This document shows positions 127-44,578 of a stretch of 64,000 nucleotides of DNA, piece by piece (position 1 is the stretch's first letter; every line of letters starts with the position of its first letter). A model generated the notes under the pieces. The model did not search any database. It was not told where the DNA came from and saw only the letters and a list, made by a program, of their open reading frames with translations. The translations under genes and the position numbers were made by a program. The stretch comes from Bradyrhizobium sp. 195 (lineage in GTDB: Bacteria; Pseudomonadota; Alphaproteobacteria; Rhizobiales; Xanthobacteraceae), in contig NZ_CP082161.1 in assembly GCF_023101665.1 (NCBI RefSeq), positions 3,100,001 through 3,164,000 on the forward strand, in the 5' to 3' direction.

Positions 127-1569
127 TCAGGCGGCGCGTGCGGACTTCTTCTGCAATGACGCAGCGATCTTCAAATCTTCGACAAAGCGCTGATATTCCA
201 GCACCTTCGCCTCCGGATCGGGCAGCCGCAGCAAGTAGGAGGGGTGCACCGTCACCAAAGCCTTGCGCCCGTCGGGAAGCTCTATGAGGCGGCCGCGGGT
301 CTTGCCGATCGGGGTGATCTTGCCGAACACGCTTTGCGCCGCGGTGGCACCCATCGCCACGATCAGATCGGGCTGAATTGCCGAAACTTCCCGCTCATAC
401 CATTGCCGGCAGGCCCGGATCTCCGGCGTATTCGGCTTCTGGTGCAGGCGAATTTTTCCGCGCGGCACGAATTTGAAGTGTTTGACCGCGTTGGTGACAT
501 AGACCTTCTTGCGGTCGACACCTGCCTCCTCCAGCGCACGGTCGAGCATCTGGCCGGCCGGGCCGACGAAGGGATGGCCGGCAAGGTCCTCCTTGTCGCC
601 GGGCTGCTCGCCGACCAGCATGATGTTGGCCGATTTCGGGCCTTCGCCGAACACGGTCTGGGTCGCGTCCTTGTAGAGATGGCAGGCGCGGCAATGCGCA
701 GCTTCCTCGCGAAGCGTTTCGAGATTGTCGGCAGTAAGCTTGCGTTTCATTGGAGCCTCCGGCCGCCTCTGAGGCTTGTGCGGATCGGTTGCGGCATTGG
801 CGATCATGGCGCCGGTCATGCGCTCGGCGTCCTCGATCAGAGGCTTAATGATCGAAGCCTCGGGCAGGTTCCTCCAGTATTTCTTTGGCATCTCGGCCTG
901 CATCGCCTTCACCTTGAGCCGGGCCGGATTGAAGATGCTGGCGTAGTAACGCCGCCAGGTTTCCTCGAGCCGATCTTCGCCCGGCGCTTCGCTTTTGCTG
1001 ACACCTGAGGTGAACGTGAGCGCATGGCCGTCCCAATGCGCGCACAAATCGGGCGTCAGGATCGACCAGGGCATGTCGGCAAAGCGCCTGGCGAAGAACG
1101 GCGCGGCGAGCTCGACGATGTGATGCTCCGGCTCGAACCAGGCGACGTAATGCGCCTCGCGTTCCCGGCCGATCTCGCGGAAGCGCACGAAGGCATGCAT
1201 CTTGTGCTCGTCGCGATAGACCGCTTTCGCCATGGCCGTGACCTGCGCGACATCAGGGTCGGTCGCGACCTCGATGAGATCGTGATTGTCCTTCAGCCGC
1301 CAGAGCAGGCGATAGAGGATCGCAAAGCGCTGGCGGTCGCGGTGCAGGATTGCGGCCTGGGCGAGTTCGACGAATTTTGCGGATACGCTGAAGGTGCCGT
1401 CGTTCACCTCGAGGATCGGAGACGGCGCGGGCGGCGCGAACAACTCGGCTTCGCCACCCTGCACGGCCCAGATGACATCGGTGGGCTTCACATGATGAAG
1501 CACGAGTGTCCGCGCGGCATTGCGCCAGCCGTCGAAATCGGTTTCGGTGTCGAGGGTGACGTACTGCAT
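127..1569 (-). CDS. DUF4130 (TIGR03915-type) / UdgX uracil-DNA binding fusion protein
   Basis: A 480-residue two-domain protein. Residues 1-255 match the TIGR03915/DUF4130 family, a DNA-metabolism protein of unknown activity that is linked to a radical SAM partner. Residues 278-475 are a UdgX-type uracil-DNA glycosylase domain with GEQPG at 320-324, a KIRLH loop at 372-376 and HPS at 442-444. In UdgX the loop histidine attacks the abasic sugar and leaves the protein covalently bound to DNA; His376 is the equivalent here. Cys293, Cys296 and Cys387 are candidate iron-sulfur ligands, and I do not see a fourth nearby cysteine. The start ATG shares one base with the stop of the radical SAM gene upstream, so the two are translationally coupled. 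The operon is probably SOS-controlled through the LexA box at 2887-2901. Confidence 0.88.
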   Translation of the reverse strand: MQYVTLDTETDFDGWRNAARTLVLHHVKPTDVIWAVQGGEAELFAPPAPSPILEVNDGTFSVSAKFVELAQAAILHRDRQRFAILYRLLWRLKDNHDLIEVATDPDVAQVTAMAKAVYRDEHKMHAFVRFREIGREREAHYVAWFEPEHHIVELAAPFFARRFADMPWSILTPDLCAHWDGHALTFTSGVSKSEAPGEDRLEETWRRYYASIFNPARLKVKAMQAEMPKKYWRNLPEASIIKPLIEDAERMTGAMIANAATDPHKPQRRPEAPMKRKLTADNLETLREEAAHCRACHLYKDATQTVFGEGPKSANIMLVGEQPGDKEDLAGHPFVGPAGQMLDRALEEAGVDRKKVYVTNAVKHFKFVPRGKIRLHQKPNTPEIRACRQWYEREVSAIQPDLIVAMGATAAQSVFGKITPIGKTRGRLIELPDGRKALVTVHPSYLLRLPDPEAKVLEYQRFVEDLKIAASLQKKSARAA

Positions 1570-2804
1570 CAGAAGCCAAACCCCAGTTGCGTTGCCTTCG
1601 GCTTGAACCGCTCGACCAGCCGCGCTTCGTCGAGACGATGCGGTGAGGGGCGGTGATCGCTGAGGACGATGAACGGCAGCGCCTTGTTGCGGGGGACGTG
1701 CAGCCGTGCGAGATCGGTGAGGCGGATCGTGGTGGTGCGGCGTGTCGCGATGATGCGTTCAACCGTCCTGGTGCCGAAGCCCGGCACGCGCAGAAGCTCC
1801 TCGCGGCTGGCGCGGTTGACGTCGAGCGGGAAGCGGTCGCGATGACGCAGCGCCCAGGCCAGCTTGGGATCGATGTCGAGCGGCAGCATGGCGCTGTCGT
1901 CGACGATCTCCGCAACGTCGAAGCCGTAGAACCGCATCAGCCAGTCGGCCTGGTAGAGCCGATGCTCGCGCAGCAAGGGCGGCTGTACCAGAGGCAAAGC
2001 GCGGCTCGCGTCAGGGATCGGGCTGAAGGCGGAATAGTAGACGCGCCGGAGCCGGTAGGCGCCGTAGAGATTGGCGCTGGTGTGGAGAATGGTATGGTCG
2101 GAGGCCGCGTCGGCGCCGACGATCATCTGTGTGCTTTGTCCGGCGGGTGCGAAGCGTTGCCGCTTTACTTTCGTTTTCGCGTTGCGGTCTTCCTCGGCTT
2201 CGTCGAGCTTCAGCCGCAACCGGCCCATGGTGCGGCGGATCGCACGCACGTCCTTTTCCGGCGCGAATTGCTGCAGGCTGGTTTCCTCGGGCATCTCGAT
2301 GTTGATGGAGAGACGATCGGCATATTTGCCGGCTTCCGCGATCAGTGTGTCGTCAGCCTCGGGAATGGTCTTCAGATGAATGTAGCCGCGGAAGTGATGC
2401 TCCTCGCGCAATTTGCGCGCGACGCTGACCACCTGCTCCATGGTGTAGTCGGGGCTGCGGATGATGCCGGAGGAGAGGAACAGCCCTTCGATGTAATTGC
2501 GACGGTAGAAGTCGAGCGTCAGCTTGACCAGTTCGTCGATGGTGAAGCGGGCGCGCGCCACGTTCGAGGAGGCGCGGTTGACGCAATAGAGGCAATCGTA
2601 ATTGCAGGCGTTGGTCAGCAGCACCTTGAGCAGGGAGATGCAGCGTCCGTCGGGCGCGTAGGAATGACAAATTCCCATGCCGGGCGCGGTCGAGCCCATG
2701 CCCTTGCCGTCGCTGGAATCCCGCTTTTCCGTGCCGCTGGAGGCGCAGGACGCGTCGTACTTGGCGGCGTCCGCGAGAATTTCCAGCTTGCGTTGTACGT
2801 CCAT
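1569..2804 (-). CDS. Putative DNA modification/repair radical SAM protein (TIGR03916-type)
   Basis: A 411-residue radical SAM enzyme. The iron-sulfur motif CNYDCLYC lies at residues 67-74. An N-terminal cysteine-containing segment precedes it, as in the TIGR03916 family. The C-terminus holds a helix-hairpin-helix segment (VPGFGTRTVERI) that suggests DNA contact. The start at 2804 gives the family's usual beginning, Met-Asp-Val-Gln; the frame is open further upstream, but that part runs through the LexA site and into imuA. It forms an operon with the DUF4130-UdgX gene, the known partner of this family. The reaction and substrate are unknown; a role in DNA damage processing is inferred from the partner and the operator. 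Confidence 0.87.
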   Translation of the reverse strand: MDVQRKLEILADAAKYDASCASSGTEKRDSSDGKGMGSTAPGMGICHSYAPDGRCISLLKVLLTNACNYDCLYCVNRASSNVARARFTIDELVKLTLDFYRRNYIEGLFLSSGIIRSPDYTMEQVVSVARKLREEHHFRGYIHLKTIPEADDTLIAEAGKYADRLSINIEMPEETSLQQFAPEKDVRAIRRTMGRLRLKLDEAEEDRNAKTKVKRQRFAPAGQSTQMIVGADAASDHTILHTSANLYGAYRLRRVYYSAFSPIPDASRALPLVQPPLLREHRLYQADWLMRFYGFDVAEIVDDSAMLPLDIDPKLAWALRHRDRFPLDVNRASREELLRVPGFGTRTVERIIATRRTTTIRLTDLARLHVPRNKALPFIVLSDHRPSPHRLDEARLVERFKPKATQLGFGF

Positions 2805-2886
2805 GTTGGAATCCCTTTGATTCAACTCATGAATCCCTAGGCGCGCCAATTTGATTGACTCTTCTGGCGCCGTTAGCTTTATATTA

Positions 2887-2901
2887 GAACATATCATGAA
2901 C
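2887..2901. promoter_or_regulatory. LexA (SOS) operator shared by two divergent operons
   Basis: GAAC-N7-GAAC, which reads GTTC-N7-GTTC on the other strand, is the alphaproteobacterial LexA box with both half-sites perfect. It lies 64 bp before imuA and 82 bp before the radical SAM gene, in the only intergenic space between the divergent operons. One bound LexA dimer could therefore repress both sides. Confidence 0.85.
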
Positions 2902-2965
2902 AAATGAGCCAGCCGCTGGTTCTTCTTTTGAAGACCACGGCCCCAATTTCTGAGGAGCGGCGAGC

Positions 2966-3754
2966 ATGAGCGGCGCACGTAGCAGCGCGCTTGCGATCCT
3001 GCGCGGCCAGATCGAGCGCATCGAGACGGCGGAGGTCGTGCATCAGTATGATCGCGTCGCACTCGGCCACGGCGAGGTCGACACCGCCCTGAAGGGCGGG
3101 CTCGCGCGCGCGGCGATCCACGAGGTGTTTTGCGAGGGGCGGCAGGGGACGGCCGCAACGGGGTTTGTCATGGGGCTTGCGAGCCGCGTGACGGCACGCA
3201 AGCCGCTGCTGTGGGTGCGGCAGGATTTCTCGGAAGTGGAGACGGGCGCGCTGTCGATGAGCGGGCTCGCCGAGCTCGGCCTCGATCCGCGCCGCGTGGT
3301 GATGGTGCGCGCGGCCGACGTGGAGAGCGCGCTGCGCACCTCGGCCGACGCGCTTGCTTGCGATGCATTGGGCGCCGTCGTCCTCGAGCTCTGGGGCGAG
3401 ACCAGGCAGTTCGATCTCGTGGCGAGCCGCAAGCTGACGCTGGCCGCGCAAGGCTCCGGCGTCACCGGCCTGATGCTGCGCATGGCCGCGCAGCCTTTGC
3501 CGTCGACCGCGGAGACGCGATGGATGCTGCGCGCGGCGCATTCGCCGCCAAGCCCGGGGTGGAGCATCTGGGGCGCGCCGCGCTTCGATGCCGAGCTGTT
3601 GCGCAATCGTCATGGCCCGTGCGGCCGGTGGATCATGGAATGGAAATGTGATGAGTGCCAGTTCAGTGAGCCGTCGACGTATTCTCAGCCTGTGGCTGCC
3701 GCGCCTGCCTATCGACCGGATCCAGCGGTTCCTTGGCAGCGCCGGACTGGGTAA
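2966..3754 (+). CDS. imuA: ImuA, SOS mutasome accessory protein
   Basis: A 262-residue RecA-fold-like protein of the ImuA family, which acts with ImuB and DnaE2 in error-prone translesion synthesis after DNA damage. The central region (HEVFCEG, LWVRQDF, GLAELGLDPRRVVMVRA) is typical of alphaproteobacterial ImuA. It is the first gene of the operon, 64 bp after the LexA box. The ATG is preceded by GAGGAGCGG, a good ribosome site. Its last 104 bases overlap imuB in another frame. Confidence 0.92.
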   Translation: MSGARSSALAILRGQIERIETAEVVHQYDRVALGHGEVDTALKGGLARAAIHEVFCEGRQGTAATGFVMGLASRVTARKPLLWVRQDFSEVETGALSMSGLAELGLDPRRVVMVRAADVESALRTSADALACDALGAVVLELWGETRQFDLVASRKLTLAAQGSGVTGLMLRMAAQPLPSTAETRWMLRAAHSPPSPGWSIWGAPRFDAELLRNRHGPCGRWIMEWKCDECQFSEPSTYSQPVAAAPAYRPDPAVPWQRRTG

Positions 3755-5243
3755 ATCCACTCATCCGAGCATCGTCGTCATCAAGGACAACAATGCGCTG
3801 GTGATCCATGCGTTGGACGAGGCCGCCGAGCGCCTCGGCCTGTACATCGGCCAGCCTCTGGCCAATGCGCGGGCGATGTGTCCGGATCTAAAAGTGTTCG
3901 ATGCCGATACCGTCGCCGATGCGAAGACGCTCAGCGATATCGCCGATTGGTGCGACCGCTTCACGCCGCTGGTGGCGCTCGATCCGCCGCACGGGTTGTT
4001 CCTCGATATCACCGGCTGCGCACATCTGTTCGGCGGCGAGGCTGCGCTGCTAACGACGCTGGTTCGTGCGCTTGCCCGCCAGGGCTTTGCCGTCGGCGCG
4101 GCGATCGCCGGCACGTCGGTCTGTGCGCGTACGCTGACGCGGCAGGCATCTAGCAGCATCGTCCCCGATGGCGGAGAGGCGGCGGCGATCGACCGGTTTC
4201 CGGTGTCTGCGCTCGGCGCGGGCGAGGCCATCACCACCGGCCTGCGCCGCGCCGGCCTGAAGACCATCGGGGACGTCGCCGCGCGCTCGCCGGGCGAAAT
4301 CACGGCGCGGTTCGGCGCGCGGTTCTCCACACTGCTCGCCCATGCGCTGGGGCAGGGCGATGCCCCGATCAATCCGCGCAAGCCGCTGCCCGATTACATT
4401 GTGGAGAAGCGCTTTGCCGAGCCGATCGCAACCGACACCACGATCGCGATGACGCTGTCGCGGCTCGCCGACACGTTGATCGCCTCCATGGAGAAACAAG
4501 GCAAGGGCGCGCGCCGGCTCGAGGCGGCGTTCTTCCGTACCGACGGCGTGGTGCGCACGATCATGGTCGAGACCGGTCGTCCGGTGACGCGAAGCGCGGT
4601 GATCGACCGCCTGTTCCGCGAGCGCCTCGATGCGCTCGCAGATCCCCTCGATCCCGGCTTCGGCTTCGATATGGTGCGGCTGTCGGCGAGCCGCACCGAG
4701 ATCGTGGTGCAGGAGCAGCGCGATCTCGACGCCCATGTCCACGACAATGACGAGCTTGCCGCGTTGATCGATCGCATCGCCGCCCGTATCGGCGGAAAGC
4801 GCGTCGTCGTGCACCTGCCGCAGGATACCCATATCCCCGAATGTGCGGCGATGGCCGCGCCGGCGCAGCATCATCTCGCTGCCGCCATGCAGGCCGAATG
4901 GCCCGCACGTGTCGAGAGCGAGCCGCCGCTGCGTCCCTTGCGGCTGTTCGACAAGCCGGAGCCGATCAAGGTGCCGTTCGCGAGCGTGCCCGACGGGCCG
5001 CCGCATCAATTCACCTGGCGCCGCGCGTTGCATGCGGTGGTGCGGGTGGAAGGGCCCGAGCGCATCGCAATGGAATGGTGGCGGCAGGACGGCAAGCAGC
5101 TGACCAGGGATTATTTCCGCATCGAGGATGCCGAAGGCCTGCGCTTCTGGATTTTTCGCGACGGTCTTTACGAGGGGGAGTGCTTCGATGCCGAGGGCAA
5201 GCCCACCCCTCCGGGCTGGTATGTGCACGGTCTCTTCGCATGA
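3651..5243 (+). CDS. imuB: ImuB, catalytically inactive Y-family polymerase-like protein
   Basis: A 530-residue Y-family polymerase homologue. The start chosen gives Met-Ser-Ala-Ser-Ser-Val followed by the family opening RRRILSLWLPRLP. Where active Y polymerases have a catalytic aspartate near the N-terminus, this protein has LSLWLPRLP, as expected for ImuB, which serves as a scaffold bridging the beta clamp, ImuA and DnaE2. Its C-terminus (GLYEGECFDAEGKP, then WYVHGLFA) is typical. The stop overlaps the dnaE2 start in an ATGA arrangement. The frame also opens earlier, at 3588, but that would deepen the overlap with imuA. Confidence 0.92.
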   Translation: MSASSVSRRRILSLWLPRLPIDRIQRFLGSAGLGKSTHPSIVVIKDNNALVIHALDEAAERLGLYIGQPLANARAMCPDLKVFDADTVADAKTLSDIADWCDRFTPLVALDPPHGLFLDITGCAHLFGGEAALLTTLVRALARQGFAVGAAIAGTSVCARTLTRQASSSIVPDGGEAAAIDRFPVSALGAGEAITTGLRRAGLKTIGDVAARSPGEITARFGARFSTLLAHALGQGDAPINPRKPLPDYIVEKRFAEPIATDTTIAMTLSRLADTLIASMEKQGKGARRLEAAFFRTDGVVRTIMVETGRPVTRSAVIDRLFRERLDALADPLDPGFGFDMVRLSASRTEIVVQEQRDLDAHVHDNDELAALIDRIAARIGGKRVVVHLPQDTHIPECAAMAAPAQHHLAAAMQAEWPARVESEPPLRPLRLFDKPEPIKVPFASVPDGPPHQFTWRRALHAVVRVEGPERIAMEWWRQDGKQLTRDYFRIEDAEGLRFWIFRDGLYEGECFDAEGKPTPPGWYVHGLFA

Positions 5244-8200
5244 ACACATCAGCTTATGCCGAGATCGGCATCACCACCAACTTCTCTTTCCTGCGCGGCG
5301 GTTCGGATCCACGCGCCTATGTGCATCAGGCGAGCAAGCTCGGCCTTCCCGCGATCGGCATCGCCGATCACAACACGCTGGCCGGCGTGGTGCGGGCCTG
5401 GAATGAGCTCGACAATGACGAGGTGGTGCACAAGCCGAAGCTCCTGATCGGCGCACGCATCGTCTTCGTCGACGGCACCCCCGACATTTTCGTCTATCCG
5501 CGCGACCGTGCGGCCTATGGCCGGCTCTGTCAGCTCCTCACCCGGGGCAAGCGCGGCGACGACATCACGCGCATCGAGAAGGGTGAGTGCCGTCTCACCT
5601 TCGCCGATCTTCTGGAGTTTTCCGAAGGCCAGCTCCTGGTCCTGACGCTGCCGCATCGCTTCGAGCCGGCGCAGGCCCTGGATGTCCTTGCCAAGCTGAA
5701 GGCGAGCCGCGCCGAGGGCGTGTGGCTGGCGGCGAGCCTGATCTATCGCGGTGATGACCGGCGCCGCCTGGCGGGGCTCGATGATCTCGCGGCAAAGGCA
5801 AAAGTGCCGCTGCTCGCGACCAACGAGGTGCTTTATCATCATCCCGCGCGCCGTCCGCTTCAGGACGTGCTGACCTGTATCCGGGAAAAGACCACGATCG
5901 AGGCGGTCGGACGGAAGCTGGTATCCAATGCCGAACGGTTCTTGAAGACGCCGCGGGAGATGGCCCGGCTGTTCCGCGATTTCCCTGAAGCGATCGCGGA
6001 GACCATGCGCTTTGCGGGCAAGATCGACTTCTCGCTCGACCAGCTCAAATACCAATATCCGGACGAGCCGGTGCCGCCGGGAAAGACCGCCCAAGGGCAT
6101 CTGGAGGATTTGACCTGGGCGGGCGTCGACAAGTATTTCGGCGGCGAGATCGACGACAAGCTGCGCGCGACGCTCAAGAAGGAGCTCGCGCTGATCGCCG
6201 AGCTGAAATACGCGCACTATTTCCTCACCGTGCATGACATCGTGCACTATGCGCGCAGCCAGAACATTTTGTGCCAGGGGCGGGGATCGGCGGCGAATTC
6301 GGCCGTGTGCTACGTGCTCGGCATCACCTCGGTCGATCCGACCAAGGTCGATCTGTTGTTCGAGCGCTTCATCTCCAAGGAGCGGCTGGAGCCGCCCGAT
6401 ATCGACGTCGATTTCGAGCATTCGCGGCGCGAGGAGGTGATGCAATATGTCTATCGCCGCTACGGCCGTCACCGCGCCGCGATCATCGCCACCGTCATCC
6501 ATTATCGCCCGCGCAGCGCCATCCGCGACGTCGGCAAGGCGCTGGGCCTGACCGAGGACGTCACCGCCGCGCTCGCCGACACCGTCTGGGGAAGCTGGGG
6601 CAAGGGCCTCAACGACATGCAGGTCAGGCAGGCCGGCCTCGATCCCAACAATCCCATGATCAACCTCGCTGTCGAGCTTGCGACCGAGTTGATCGAATTC
6701 CCCCGCCATCTCTCCCAGCATGTCGGCGGCTATGTGCTGACGCAGGACCGGCTCGACACCTATGTTCCCATTGGCAACGCCGCGATGGACGACCGCACCT
6801 TCATCGAATGGGACAAGGACGACGTCGACGCGCTTCATATGATGAAGGTCGACGTGCTCGCGCTGGGCATGCTGACCTGCATCCGGAAATGTTTTGATCT
6901 GATCGCGGACCACAAGGGCGAGCGTTTCGTGCTGGCGAGCGTTCCTCAGGACGATCCCGAGGTTTACGACATGCTGTGTGCCGGGGAGTCGCTCGGTGTC
7001 TTCCAGGTCGAGAGCCGCGCCCAAATGAACATGCTGCCGCGGCTGAAACCGCGGACCTTCTACGATCTCGTCATCGAAGTCGCGATCGTGCGGCCGGGGC
7101 CGATCCAGGGCGACATGGTGCATCCGTATTTGCGGCGGCGGAATGGTCTGGAGGAGGTTCGTTATCCCTCGCCATCGCCCGAGCATGGCCCTGCAGACGA
7201 ACTCTACAAGGTGCTGCACAAGACGAAAGGCGTACCCCTGTTCCAGGAGCAGGCGATGCGAATTGCCATCGAGGCAGCAAAATTCACCTCCGAGGAAGCC
7301 AACGGCCTGCGCCGCTCGATGGCGACCTTCCGCAATGTCGGCACTATCGGCCAATACGAGGAGAAGCTGATCGGCAACATGGTAGCGCGCGGCTACGATG
7401 CCAACTTCGCCAGGAGCTGCTTCGACCAGATCAAGGGGTTTGGCTCCTACGGCTTTCCGGAGAGCCATGCCGCAAGCTTCGCGCAGCTCGTCTACATCTC
7501 GTCATGGCTGAAGTATCATCACCCCGATGCCTTCTGCTGCGGGCTCCTCAACTCGCAGCCCATGGGCTTTTACGCGCCGGCGCAGATCGTCGGCGATGCC
7601 CGTAAGAACGGCGTCGAGATTCGCGACATCGACGTGTCCTACAGCTTTGCGCAGAACACGCTGGAGAGTACTGAAGGAAAATGCTGCGCCGTCCGCCTGG
7701 GTTTCCGCCAGATCGACGGTTTCCATTGGCTGGATGAAGATGAGGAGCGGCTGAAGCGCTCCCAGCCGTCATTCCGGGGCGCGCGTAGCGCGAGCCCGGA
7801 ATCCATCGGGCCGCATGCGCTTGGCGGAATGGATTCCGGGTTCGACGCTGACGCGTGGCCCCGGAATGACAATGCGGAGAAATCACAAGACTGGGCCGAC
7901 CGCATCGTCGCTGCCCGCAACCGCCGACCCTTCACCTCGCTCGAGGATTTCGCTCGCGATACCGGCCTGCCCAAGCGCGCGCTGATCCTGCTGGCGGATG
8001 CCGACGCGTTTCGCTCGCTCAGTCTCGACCGCCGCGAAGCACTGTGGCAGGTGCGGCGGCTGCCCGACGACGTGCCGCTGCCGCTGTTCGAGACGGCGAC
8101 CGCCCGCGAGCAGCCGGATGAGCATGCAAAGCCGCTGCCGCTGATGCCGCCCGCCGAGCAGGTGGTCGCGGACTACCAGACCATCCGGCTCTCGCTCAAG

Positions 8201-8701
8201 GGCCATCCGATGGAATTTTTACGCGAGATGTTTTCGCGCGAGCGGGTGGTGGCCTGCAAGGCCATCAGCCATGAGAACGAGCGGCGCCGCGTCCGCTGCG
8301 CCGGCGTGGTGCTGGTGCGGCAACGACCGGGCAGCGCCAGCGGCGTCGTATTCATGACGCTGGAGGACGAAACCGGCATCGCCAATGTCGTGGTGTGGCC
8401 CAAGATCATGGAGCAGTACCGTAAGGAGGTGATGGGCGCGCGCCTCATCCTGGTCGAGGGCTATATCCAGAGCAGCCCCGAGAAGGTGACACATCTCATC
8501 GCCCAGCGCATGGTCGACCGCTCACACGATCTGGTCGGATTGGCCAACGATGCCCTGGGCCGCAAGCATCCGGTGCCGGCAGGCGCCACATTGGTCGAGC
8601 CCTTCAACGAAGACCCTCGCGCGCTCGCGGACATGCCAGCGCAGAAACTCCGCCACCCCCGCAACGTCCGCATCCTGCCGCCGTCGCGGGATTTTCATTG
8701 A
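5240..8701 (+). CDS. dnaE2: DnaE2 error-prone DNA polymerase III alpha-type subunit
   Basis: A 1153-residue C-family polymerase that carries out the mutagenic synthesis step of the ImuA-ImuB-DnaE2 mutasome. An N-terminal PHP domain (EIGITTNFSFLRGG, residues 8-21) is followed by the polymerase core with PDIDVDF; Asp387 and Asp389 match the paired catalytic aspartates, and Asp538 in KVDVLALG is the likely third. Helix-hairpin-helix and OB-fold parts follow (NVVVWPKIMEQY). The protein is longer than typical DnaE2 because residues about 843-877 are encoded by a palindromic repeat element (7768-7870), placed between the polymerase core and the helix-hairpin-helix region. The frame remains open through it. 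Start and imuB stop overlap by four bases. Confidence 0.95.
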   Translation: MNTSAYAEIGITTNFSFLRGGSDPRAYVHQASKLGLPAIGIADHNTLAGVVRAWNELDNDEVVHKPKLLIGARIVFVDGTPDIFVYPRDRAAYGRLCQLLTRGKRGDDITRIEKGECRLTFADLLEFSEGQLLVLTLPHRFEPAQALDVLAKLKASRAEGVWLAASLIYRGDDRRRLAGLDDLAAKAKVPLLATNEVLYHHPARRPLQDVLTCIREKTTIEAVGRKLVSNAERFLKTPREMARLFRDFPEAIAETMRFAGKIDFSLDQLKYQYPDEPVPPGKTAQGHLEDLTWAGVDKYFGGEIDDKLRATLKKELALIAELKYAHYFLTVHDIVHYARSQNILCQGRGSAANSAVCYVLGITSVDPTKVDLLFERFISKERLEPPDIDVDFEHSRREEVMQYVYRRYGRHRAAIIATVIHYRPRSAIRDVGKALGLTEDVTAALADTVWGSWGKGLNDMQVRQAGLDPNNPMINLAVELATELIEFPRHLSQHVGGYVLTQDRLDTYVPIGNAAMDDRTFIEWDKDDVDALHMMKVDVLALGMLTCIRKCFDLIADHKGERFVLASVPQDDPEVYDMLCAGESLGVFQVESRAQMNMLPRLKPRTFYDLVIEVAIVRPGPIQGDMVHPYLRRRNGLEEVRYPSPSPEHGPADELYKVLHKTKGVPLFQEQAMRIAIEAAKFTSEEANGLRRSMATFRNVGTIGQYEEKLIGNMVARGYDANFARSCFDQIKGFGSYGFPESHAASFAQLVYISSWLKYHHPDAFCCGLLNSQPMGFYAPAQIVGDARKNGVEIRDIDVSYSFAQNTLESTEGKCCAVRLGFRQIDGFHWLDEDEERLKRSQPSFRGARSASPESIGPHALGGMDSGFDADAWPRNDNAEKSQDWADRIVAARNRRPFTSLEDFARDTGLPKRALILLADADAFRSLSLDRREALWQVRRLPDDVPLPLFETATAREQPDEHAKPLPLMPPAEQVVADYQTIRLSLKGHPMEFLREMFSRERVVACKAISHENERRRVRCAGVVLVRQRPGSASGVVFMTLEDETGIANVVVWPKIMEQYRKEVMGARLILVEGYIQSSPEKVTHLIAQRMVDRSHDLVGLANDALGRKHPVPAGATLVEPFNEDPRALADMPAQKLRHPRNVRILPPSRDFH
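7768..7870. repeat. Double palindromic element inserted in the dnaE2 reading frame
   Basis: The 103-bp segment has perfect 13-bp terminal inverted repeats (GTCATTCCGGGGC at 7768-7780 and its complement at 7858-7870) and a perfect 12-bp inner inverted repeat (CCCGGAATCCAT at 7795-7806 and its complement at 7829-7840). It looks like an intergenic palindromic element of the kind found in this genus, but here it is read through as about 34 residues of DnaE2 without a stop. Confidence 0.85.
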
Positions 8702-24690: not shown

Positions 24691-25127
24691 GGTCCCGCCA
24701 GTGGTGGATCTCAGCGTAAAAATCTACGTGGCAAGCCTTTAGGTTTGGTATCCTTGGAAACCGAATCCGAACCGTGCAGCACGGAACAAGGTCATAGGCC
24801 GGCGAAGGAATTTTTACCGGTGATCAGGCATCCGTTGCGATGCGATCGAGCCAAAGGCCGGCTTGGCGAGACATATGTCGTGCAGGGCTGCTATGGAACC
24901 GGGTGAGGCTGGCCGCCTGTGCCGGACAGGCACTCCGCAGGGAAGTATCTCAGTATTATGTTACCGATCTGGATCGTGGCGGCCGATGGCTGCGGGTGGG
25001 ACAAGAAAAATGCGCCTATGTGGGGTGGATCACACACGCGCCTGTACGACTGCGGTAGCCTGAACAATTTTGCCCCCCGCGTCGAACCGTCCGCCGTATC
25101 GACCCGACCAATTTTGCGAGACGGCCT
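24691..25127. other. Intergenic region between divergent GGDEF and ECF sigma genes
   Basis: These 437 bases hold no gene I can support. They should contain promoters for both neighbours. A GGAAC-like motif is present at about 24895, but no convincing partner -10 element follows, so I call no promoter. GC content looks lower than in the flanking genes. Confidence 0.5.
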
Positions 25128-43709: not shown

Positions 43710-44578
43710 TACGTGTTCTCTGGCTTGCCCTCGATTGCGTTCGCGACCCGCAGGGCCTGCAAGGTCTCGGCGACGTCATGGGTCCGGATGATTTTTGCGC
43801 CGCGCTGCGCGGCGATCAGATGCGCGGCGATCGAGCCGGCGAGCCGTTCTTTCGGCTCCGACGGCGACACCGAGGCGATGAAGCGCTTGCGCGAGGCACC
43901 GACCAGGATCGGCAGGCCGAACATCTCGAATTCGCGTAAGCGCGCCAGCGCGGTCATGCTCTGCTCGGCAGTCTTGCCGAAGCCGATGCCGGGATCGAGC
44001 ACGATCCTGTCGCGCGCGATGCCGGCCTTTGCGGCGATGTCCAGCGAACGCAGGAAGAACGTCTTCATGTCCGTGATGATGTCGATGGCGGGATCGGCGT
44101 CGTCGCGGTTGTGCATGACGATGACGGGGACGCCTTTCGCGGCCACCAGTGGAGCCATCGCGGCGTCGCGCTGCAGGCCCCAGACGTCGTTGGGGATCGC
44201 CGCGCCCTGGTCGAGCGCGAAGGCCACCACCTCGGCCTTCATGCTGTCGATCGAGACCGGCACGCCGAGTGCAACCACGCCCGCCAGCACCGGCTTCAAC
44301 CGGGCAAGCTCGTCATCCGCCGTGACTGCCTTGGCGCCCTTGTAGGGCCGGGTGGACTCGGCGCCGATATCGATGATGTCGACGCCGTCCGCAATCATTG
44401 CCCGCGCCCGCGCGAGCGCCTGCTCGGGCGCGATGAACTCGCCGCCATCGGAAAAGGAGTCCGGGGTGATGTTGAGCACGCCCATCACCGCCGGAATGGG
44501 CCGTTCCAGCAGCGTCCGCAGCGCATCTAGCCCGGCCGAGCCGGCCGGCGGGACGGATGGGGAGGGCGAGGCATTCAT
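43709..44578 (-). CDS. folP: FolP, dihydropteroate synthase
   Basis: A 289-residue TIM-barrel enzyme that condenses the activated pterin with p-aminobenzoate; it is the sulfonamide target. Signatures: GVLNITPDSFSDGG, DIGAESTRP, LDPGIGFGKT and GASRKRF. In NDVWGL a tryptophan replaces the more usual small residue. It is the first gene of folP-folB-folK, and a family A repeat lies upstream. Confidence 0.95.
   Translation of the reverse strand: MNASPSPSVPPAGSAGLDALRTLLERPIPAVMGVLNITPDSFSDGGEFIAPEQALARARAMIADGVDIIDIGAESTRPYKGAKAVTADDELARLKPVLAGVVALGVPVSIDSMKAEVVAFALDQGAAIPNDVWGLQRDAAMAPLVAAKGVPVIVMHNRDDADPAIDIITDMKTFFLRSLDIAAKAGIARDRIVLDPGIGFGKTAEQSMTALARLREFEMFGLPILVGASRKRFIASVSPSEPKERLAGSIAAHLIAAQRGAKIIRTHDVAETLQALRVANAIEGKPENT

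Follow-up and report, generated by a model that had tools for sequence, protein, structure and literature searches.

A LexA-type box between the imuA-imuB-dnaE2 cassette and a radical SAM/DUF4130-UdgX gene pair in Bradyrhizobium

The 64,000-nucleotide stretch of Bradyrhizobium sp. 195 analysed here (contig NZ_CP082161.1, positions 3,100,001 to 3,164,000; hereafter the window) belongs to a genome of 9.14 Mb and carries a LexA-type box between two divergent gene sets, namely a radical S-adenosylmethionine (rSAM) gene with its DUF4130-UdgX partner, and the mutasome cassette imuA-imuB-dnaE2. From left to right, the order is DUF4130-UdgX (-), rSAM (-), a 161-bp gap, imuA (+), imuB (+) and dnaE2 (+). 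Comparison across genomes leads us to consider it probable that the pair is a two-gene SOS damage module which, in Nitrobacteraceae, stands under the imuA operator and acts beside the mutasome by a separate chemistry. In this regard, three layers have to be separated: the predicted SOS-type control of the pair, which is general in our sample, its linkage to imu genes, which is recurrent in a minority of loci, and the single shared operator, which is seen in Nitrobacteraceae only.

The box, GAACATATCATGAAC at 2887-2901, lies on the plus strand within the gap between rSAM and imuA and points toward imuA. It has the form GAAC-N7-GAAC, which is the direct repeat GTTC-N7-GTTC described upstream of SOS genes as the alphaproteobacterial LexA operator (PMC8565304). 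The initial annotation of this DNA had proposed a perfect GAAC-N7-GAAC in the shared gap, and this was confirmed. Both GTTC halves are kept in each of 19 aligned gaps, which come from Bradyrhizobium, Rhodopseudomonas, Nitrobacter and relatives and include that of the window's genome. The enrichment of the bare pattern was dropped as evidence, with two matches in the window against 1.5 expected and 199 in the genome against 239 for the reversed pattern. The narrower motif GAACRWANNNNGAAC occurs 23 times in the genome against 2 for its reversed control, and the chance of at least one site in the 161-bp gap is p ~0.0035 at the bare-pattern rate and ~0.0004 at the GAACRWANNNNGAAC rate. Scored with a matrix built on 58 distinct boxes preceding other rSAM genes, one of them a 15-mer identical to GAACATATCATGAAC, the box reaches or exceeds 57 of the 58; the second match in the window, at 44046-44060, reaches 15.1 against 26.2 for the box at 2887-2901 and is probably a chance occurrence. 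The 22 other GAACRWANNNNGAAC sites, inspected through 20 fetched stretches, include neighbours of recA at 92 bp, of ssb at 154 bp and of uvrA at 72 bp, the last with the box reversed, the remaining sites adjoining other or unidentified genes (a deformylase, a MarR-type regulator, dnaE1, a phosphoketolase and small unnamed open reading frames, ORFs). The presence of recA, ssb and uvrA beside such sites, together with the enrichment of 23 to 2, indicates that the motif works in this genome, although some of the sites may be due to chance.

The leftward genes overlap, the rSAM stop running into the ATG of the UdgX gene (TGATG). The rSAM protein (411 aa, 1569..2804, minus strand), whose nearest named relatives are from Bradyrhizobium, matches PF04055 over gathering and TIGR03916 at 567 bits (cut-off 343.5), a family that we take to be the same as COG4277. 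Its CX3CX2C motif, made by C67, C71 and C74, is invariant among 48 sequences, as are three further cysteines at positions 20, 46 and 55, and a C-terminal helix-hairpin-helix (HhH) is placed at about 327-356, where the HhH models score below gathering. The second protein (480 aa, 127..1569, minus strand) matches TIGR03914 at 341 bits (cut-off 190), TIGR03915 at 230 bits (cut-off 112), PF13566 and PF03167, and fuses a DUF4130 domain (about 80-237) to a UdgX-type uracil-DNA glycosylase (UDG) domain (about 280-472). The latter compares at 47-51% with the structures of Mycobacterium smegmatis UdgX (MsmUdgX), has motif A (GEQPG), the R and H of the R-loop and motif B (HPS), and retains the cross-linking residues E321, Q322, R374, H376 and H442. 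The fold matches listed for the fusion protein are all taken up by its UDG domain. The biochemistry of the pair had been called unknown at the outset, which holds for rSAM and DUF4130 but not for UdgX.

In a sample of 397 genomes of the phylum, the rSAM gene, as TIGR03916 over cut-off, is found in 103, about a quarter, and the flanks were examined for 100 of them (G000, G035 and G023 were left out), some being clipped by contig ends. A DUF4130 match lies downstream of rSAM in each of these 100 loci, the weakest being that of L190 with 51 bits, and a UDG domain in 73; the constant partner of rSAM is DUF4130, with the UDG domain variable. The region first assigned to the observation, 1569..5243, leaves out the UdgX gene itself (127-1569).

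The box accompanies the pair in a form that matches the clade. The window's class was taken as Alphaproteobacteria because its relatives are Bradyrhizobium, and loci were assigned to the same class by kinship: GAAC-N7-GAAC, in either direction, is found within 150 bp of the rSAM start in 64 of the 65 same-class loci. CTGT-N8-ACAG, the LexA motif of beta- and gammaproteobacteria, precedes rSAM with at most one mismatch in 30 of the 35 other-class loci, 25 of them exact. Exchanging the motifs gives N7 in 0/35 other-class and N8 in 2/65 same-class loci, and controls with altered spacings or scrambles give 0-5/65 and 0-4/35. An earlier, partly overlapping set shows the box in 39 of 43 alphaproteobacterial representatives (controls at most 1), and among 19 betaproteobacterial ones the exact N8 motif was counted in 7 and, with the searched region extended 6 bp into the gene, a motif within one mismatch in 17 (controls at most 1). 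A Verrucomicrobia locus (L089) carries CTGTTCTCTAGAACAG, TGTTC-N4-GAACA being the LexA motif of that group. Weighing against a general control by LexA, a box of the expected type is absent in 6 of the 100 phylum loci (5/35 other-class, 1/65 same-class). The exact N7 box is lacking in four alphaproteobacterial representatives (L016, L075, L091, L093), and four gammaproteobacterial loci (L081, L096, L099, L105) have neither exact box type. Directly before rSAM in L075 and L101 there is GAGAACAAACGTTCT (GAAC-N4-GTTC) in place of the N7 box, possibly another LexA motif, in Rhodospirillales/Acetobacteraceae genomes.

Imu genes were detected within about 6 kb of rSAM in 13 of the 100 phylum loci, seven of Nitrobacteraceae, where they are divergent, and six of one other same-class family, and none was detected within that distance in the other 87. 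Among the 35 rSAM genomes outside the class, DnaE2 is over cut-off in 24, present as two adjoining pieces in one (G245) and found in none of the remaining 10, and 8 of these 10 keep the box within one mismatch. DnaE2 is over cut-off in 39 of 42 rSAM genomes from other orders of the class, and in the window's order, represented by 199 genomes, it is so in 152 against 38 for rSAM. The rSAM pair and DnaE2 do not need each other. All 38 order genomes with rSAM have DnaE2, 36 of them with E = 0 and two (G100, G159) with an insertion, so that an initially suspected lack of DnaE2 in these two was ruled out; the co-occurrence as such shows little, DnaE2 being common outside small genomes (by eye). Since the pair carries a box with no imu genes nearby and also without DnaE2, the predicted SOS-type control belongs to the pair itself, rather than to a shared operator. 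The proposal that one shared operator reflects a common damage response retains its broader part, in that both gene sets are probably in the SOS regulon and are linked in three families; the shared operator is not, however, what brings the pair into the response, as the pair has a box of its own nearly everywhere that imuA is not adjacent.

These three families, among about 31, are Nitrobacteraceae and a Methylopila-type family, both with the divergent arrangement, and an erythrobacter-type family with the pair in line with dnaE2; 0.14 would be expected by chance, and a rough model, with families as counted by us, gives P = 0.0004 for at least three and 0.009 for at least two, if two of them were one event. 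In the six erythrobacter-type genomes, named after the relatives of one of them (its rSAM is 88-93% identical to proteins of Qipengyuania, Erythrobacter and Tsuneonella), a box at -26 or -50 is followed by rSAM, a DUF4130-UDG gene whose start falls within the final bases of rSAM, and dnaE2, separated from the UDG gene by 1-6 bp. Five of the stretches extend far enough to show imuA-imuB, which lie upstream on the same strand behind a box of their own, with imuB ending 69 bp from rSAM in one genome and 0.85-2.5 kb from it in four. Pattern matching recognised the UdgX signature in five of these genomes, the exception being L253. DnaE2 is present in 58 of 61 genomes with the UDG domain and in 16 of 26 without it (Fisher 0.0002, uncorrected for kinship), in a table of 87 genomes that counts G245 as positive and leaves out 16 order genomes of the phylum sample that had no DnaE2 model search. 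That UdgX never occurs without DnaE2 was ruled out by G216, G400 and G507, with a UDG domain and no DnaE2 over cut-off, G400 having a short DnaE2-like fragment.

The linkage in three families and the tendency of the UDG domain to go with DnaE2 might indicate that the pair is part of the mutasome pathway, making or preparing lesions, such as capped abasic sites or modified bases, which ImuABC would then copy in sequence. We regard this as unlikely, if by no means negligible, given the 87 loci with no detected imu gene, the module without DnaE2 in 10/35 genomes outside the class and 3/42 of other orders within it, the excess of DnaE2 over rSAM in the order and the three genomes with a UDG domain and no DnaE2 over cut-off. 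A more specific version, in which the pair would be an auxiliary arm of ImuABC, with rSAM-DUF4130 converting a damaged base, UdgX removing the deaminated product and capping the site, and DnaE2 writing across it, is harder still to credit; if true, damage would be turned into controlled mutation, and the order box-rSAM-UdgX-dnaE2 would be its clearest genomic trace. A direct hand-over to DnaE2 is possible and is favoured by the erythrobacter-type arrangement, but it is not required by the distribution of the genes. The pair is best described as a separate SOS effector, repeatedly coupled to the mutasome but not dependent on ImuABC.

To whom the shared box belongs is indicated by its orientation and distance. 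Of 110 loci, 30 in the Nitrobacteraceae group (the window among them) and 3 of Methylopila type, the latter with separate boxes for each side, show a divergent arrangement of imuA and rSAM; in a Hansschlegelia locus, imuA lies 6.9 kb from rSAM. Orientation was counted over pooled, overlapping locus sets. In 105 alphaproteobacterial loci outside the groups just named, 90 boxes point GAAC toward rSAM, at a median of -27, and 7 are reversed, for which reason a strict rule of orientation was dropped. Elsewhere in the order, all 15 boxes found ahead of imuA are directed toward it; of 28 imuA loci outside Bradyrhizobium, 13 showed no box, partly since the start was merely estimated. The conserved blocks of the gap face the same way: GAGTCAA is found in 19/19 aligned gaps and the adjacent TAATATAAAGC in most, the remainder of the gap being variable, and read toward imuA they give TTGACT (2855-2860) and TATATT (2880-2885, or TTTATA at 2878-2883), with the box just 3' of the -10. 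We read these blocks as a plausible imuA promoter (2855..2885, plus strand). Orientation, distance and promoter-like blocks suggest that the shared box in Nitrobacteraceae is imuA's own operator, and the simplest reading would be that the pair moved beside imuA and now uses its operator.

Several observations weigh against a control of the leftward genes from this site or against the promoter itself. The box is reversed relative to rSAM in 39 of 40 Nitrobacteraceae-group loci (a count that includes the window, two genomes twice, and L047, L053 and L058, with too little upstream to show imuA), its position is -97 both in the window and in most Bradyrhizobium, against the median of -27 elsewhere, and a sigma-70 consensus scan reported no promoter. 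Because of the reversed orientation and the distance, control can be assigned to the leftward genes with less certainty than to imuA. The box might even control imuA alone, the Nitrobacteraceae rSAM operon having lost its own operator and using another promoter nearer its start, a view that fits the uniform orientation of imuA boxes, the blocks facing imuA and a genome of the same family with unlinked rSAM (L028), which keeps a normal box at -37. The seven reversed boxes close to rSAM elsewhere make orientation alone insufficient, however, and no other conserved promoter-like block facing rSAM was seen by eye between the box and the rSAM start in the 19 gaps, so that we find this alternative doubtful. 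Since reversed boxes do precede rSAM in other loci, control of the leftward operon by the imuA operator is still likely. Between the box and imuA, at 2906-2922, the window also has a terminator-like hairpin, GAGCCAGCCGCTGGTTC, with a T-rich tail; the arm that reads GAACC toward rSAM is mostly kept in the aligned gaps, and L045 and L054 have a second GAAC-N7-GAAC in this area. It may be a leader hairpin or a decayed second operator.

From the computed gene identities, box, conservation and active-site residues, we infer the following course of events, in which LexA binding, repression in both directions and all the chemistry in this host are conditional. The rSAM-DUF4130(-UdgX) set would be a DNA-damage module that is a target of LexA in its own right in the majority of proteobacteria possessing it; in Nitrobacteraceae it would have come to face imuA head to head and to be governed by the operator of that gene. 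When bound at 2887-2901, LexA would cover the region where imuA starts, together with the neighbouring AT-rich sequence probably used by the leftward promoter, and, as the conservation suggests, repress imuA and probably the leftward operon, and RecA-triggered LexA cleavage would free both. The two sets of products would then act on the same damaged DNA, with ImuA-ImuB-DnaE2 copying past lesions. Family knowledge suggests that the rSAM-DUF4130 core may act on a damaged or modified base through 5'-deoxyadenosyl radical chemistry, and that the fused UdgX may remove uracil and cap the abasic site covalently through His376, which would keep the strand from being cleaved there before recombination or translesion synthesis takes over. 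Capping cannot be the core function, as the UDG domain is lacking in 27/100 loci. To our knowledge, no substrate of this rSAM family is established. One proposal in print, made by analogy, is that of a spore-photoproduct-lyase-like enzyme directly reversing a UV lesion: DUF4130 has been tied to SplB-like radical SAM photolyases (PMC3765255), and SOS control and the HhH would suit DNA as substrate. We hold this to be improbable. The model searches of the window rSAM gave no SplB match, and SplB is not among the fold matches listed.

The rightward cassette comprises imuA (2966..3754), imuB (about 3651..5243, its start picked by us) and dnaE2, or imuC (5240..8701), all on the plus strand. The last encodes an error-prone C-family polymerase matching NF004225 at 1564 bits (cut-off 939), and ImuB, a Y-family polymerase relative, matches PF00817 at 38.7 bits (gathering 23.2) and PF11799 over gathering. 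ImuA is named by position and homology, the curated model NF033429 giving a weak 39.8 bits against a cut-off of 150; its position and the gene order fit, and imuA matches were found in 43 of 61 genomes of the order. The imuA 3' end and imuB overlap by about 100 bp (3651-3754) in different frames, and overlapping matches recur in relatives. In family f18 (G100, G159, G017, G131, G064), the DnaE2 match is split by an insertion, which corresponds to a point near residue 565 in the window protein. In f60 (G343, G357, G420, G446, G460, G547), the match ends at about 938-955 of the model, and model positions of about 942-1043 are matched by another ORF located elsewhere; DnaE2 is apparently divided there, its C-terminal piece standing alone. 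Elsewhere in the genome, a LexA-type site at 1865302 (G000:C1; L145 2003-3129) precedes an ORF of 78 aa and another radical-SAM-like gene, which scores 68.8 bits with TIGR04471 and so stays below cut-off, and small ORFs resembling that of L145 by eye (DQAIA..GD) follow the sites in L146 and L160, possibly as a recurrent SOS small-protein family. On the second contig (601,650 bases), the identical 15-mer GAACATATCATGAAC at 25011 (L159 2012-3331) lies 228 bp before a 358-aa ORF with no Pfam or NCBIfam match.

That the pair is under SOS control in general is already known, and the clade-matched box counts are added support. SOS control of the UDG-COG4277 operon has been described in Bacteroidetes, with earlier reports credited for Verrucomicrobia and Alphaproteobacteria (PMC8565304), and DUF4130 has been presented as an enzyme with a predicted part in mutagenesis and with ties to rSAM and UDG (PMC3765255). 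In the parts of the literature searched, we found no LexA box common to imuA and the pair, nor the pair before dnaE2, although Figure 1 of PMC3765255 may show such neighbourhoods. The sharing of one operator represents a local variation on an already known set of SOS targets, and the LexA-type box in its clade-specific form marks the pair as a regular, predicted SOS effector. Its position beside dnaE2 in one family offers a connection, open to experiment, of the processing of base damage with induced mutagenesis.

Among known systems, the UDG-COG4277 operon is the closest, combining a UDG-family gene and a COG4277 gene under LexA control, as is predicted for the window pair; in PMC8565304 that operon appears as a target distinct from the imu cassette, whereas the window pair is divergent from imuA with one shared box. 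The imuA-imuB-dnaE2 cassette has its usual gene order and a LexA-type box upstream of imuA, but in the window this operator is common to it and a further SOS gene set, and in the erythrobacter-type family such a set precedes dnaE2. SplB is likewise a radical SAM enzyme tied to the SOS response (PMC8565304, PMC3765255), from which the window rSAM differs in its best structural matches and its extra invariant cysteines, besides the missing model match. UdgX in general has been proposed to remove uracil and cap the abasic site, and genome-wide methods make use of it, while the role it has in nature is described as largely unknown (PMC10359453); the fused, SOS-controlled form provides a setting in which to seek that role. 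It has the fold of MsmUdgX, whose E52, Q53, R107, H109 and H178 correspond to E321, Q322, R374, H376 and H442 of the window protein, but it is fused behind DUF4130, paired with an rSAM gene, and carries the R-loop KIRLH instead of KRRIH.

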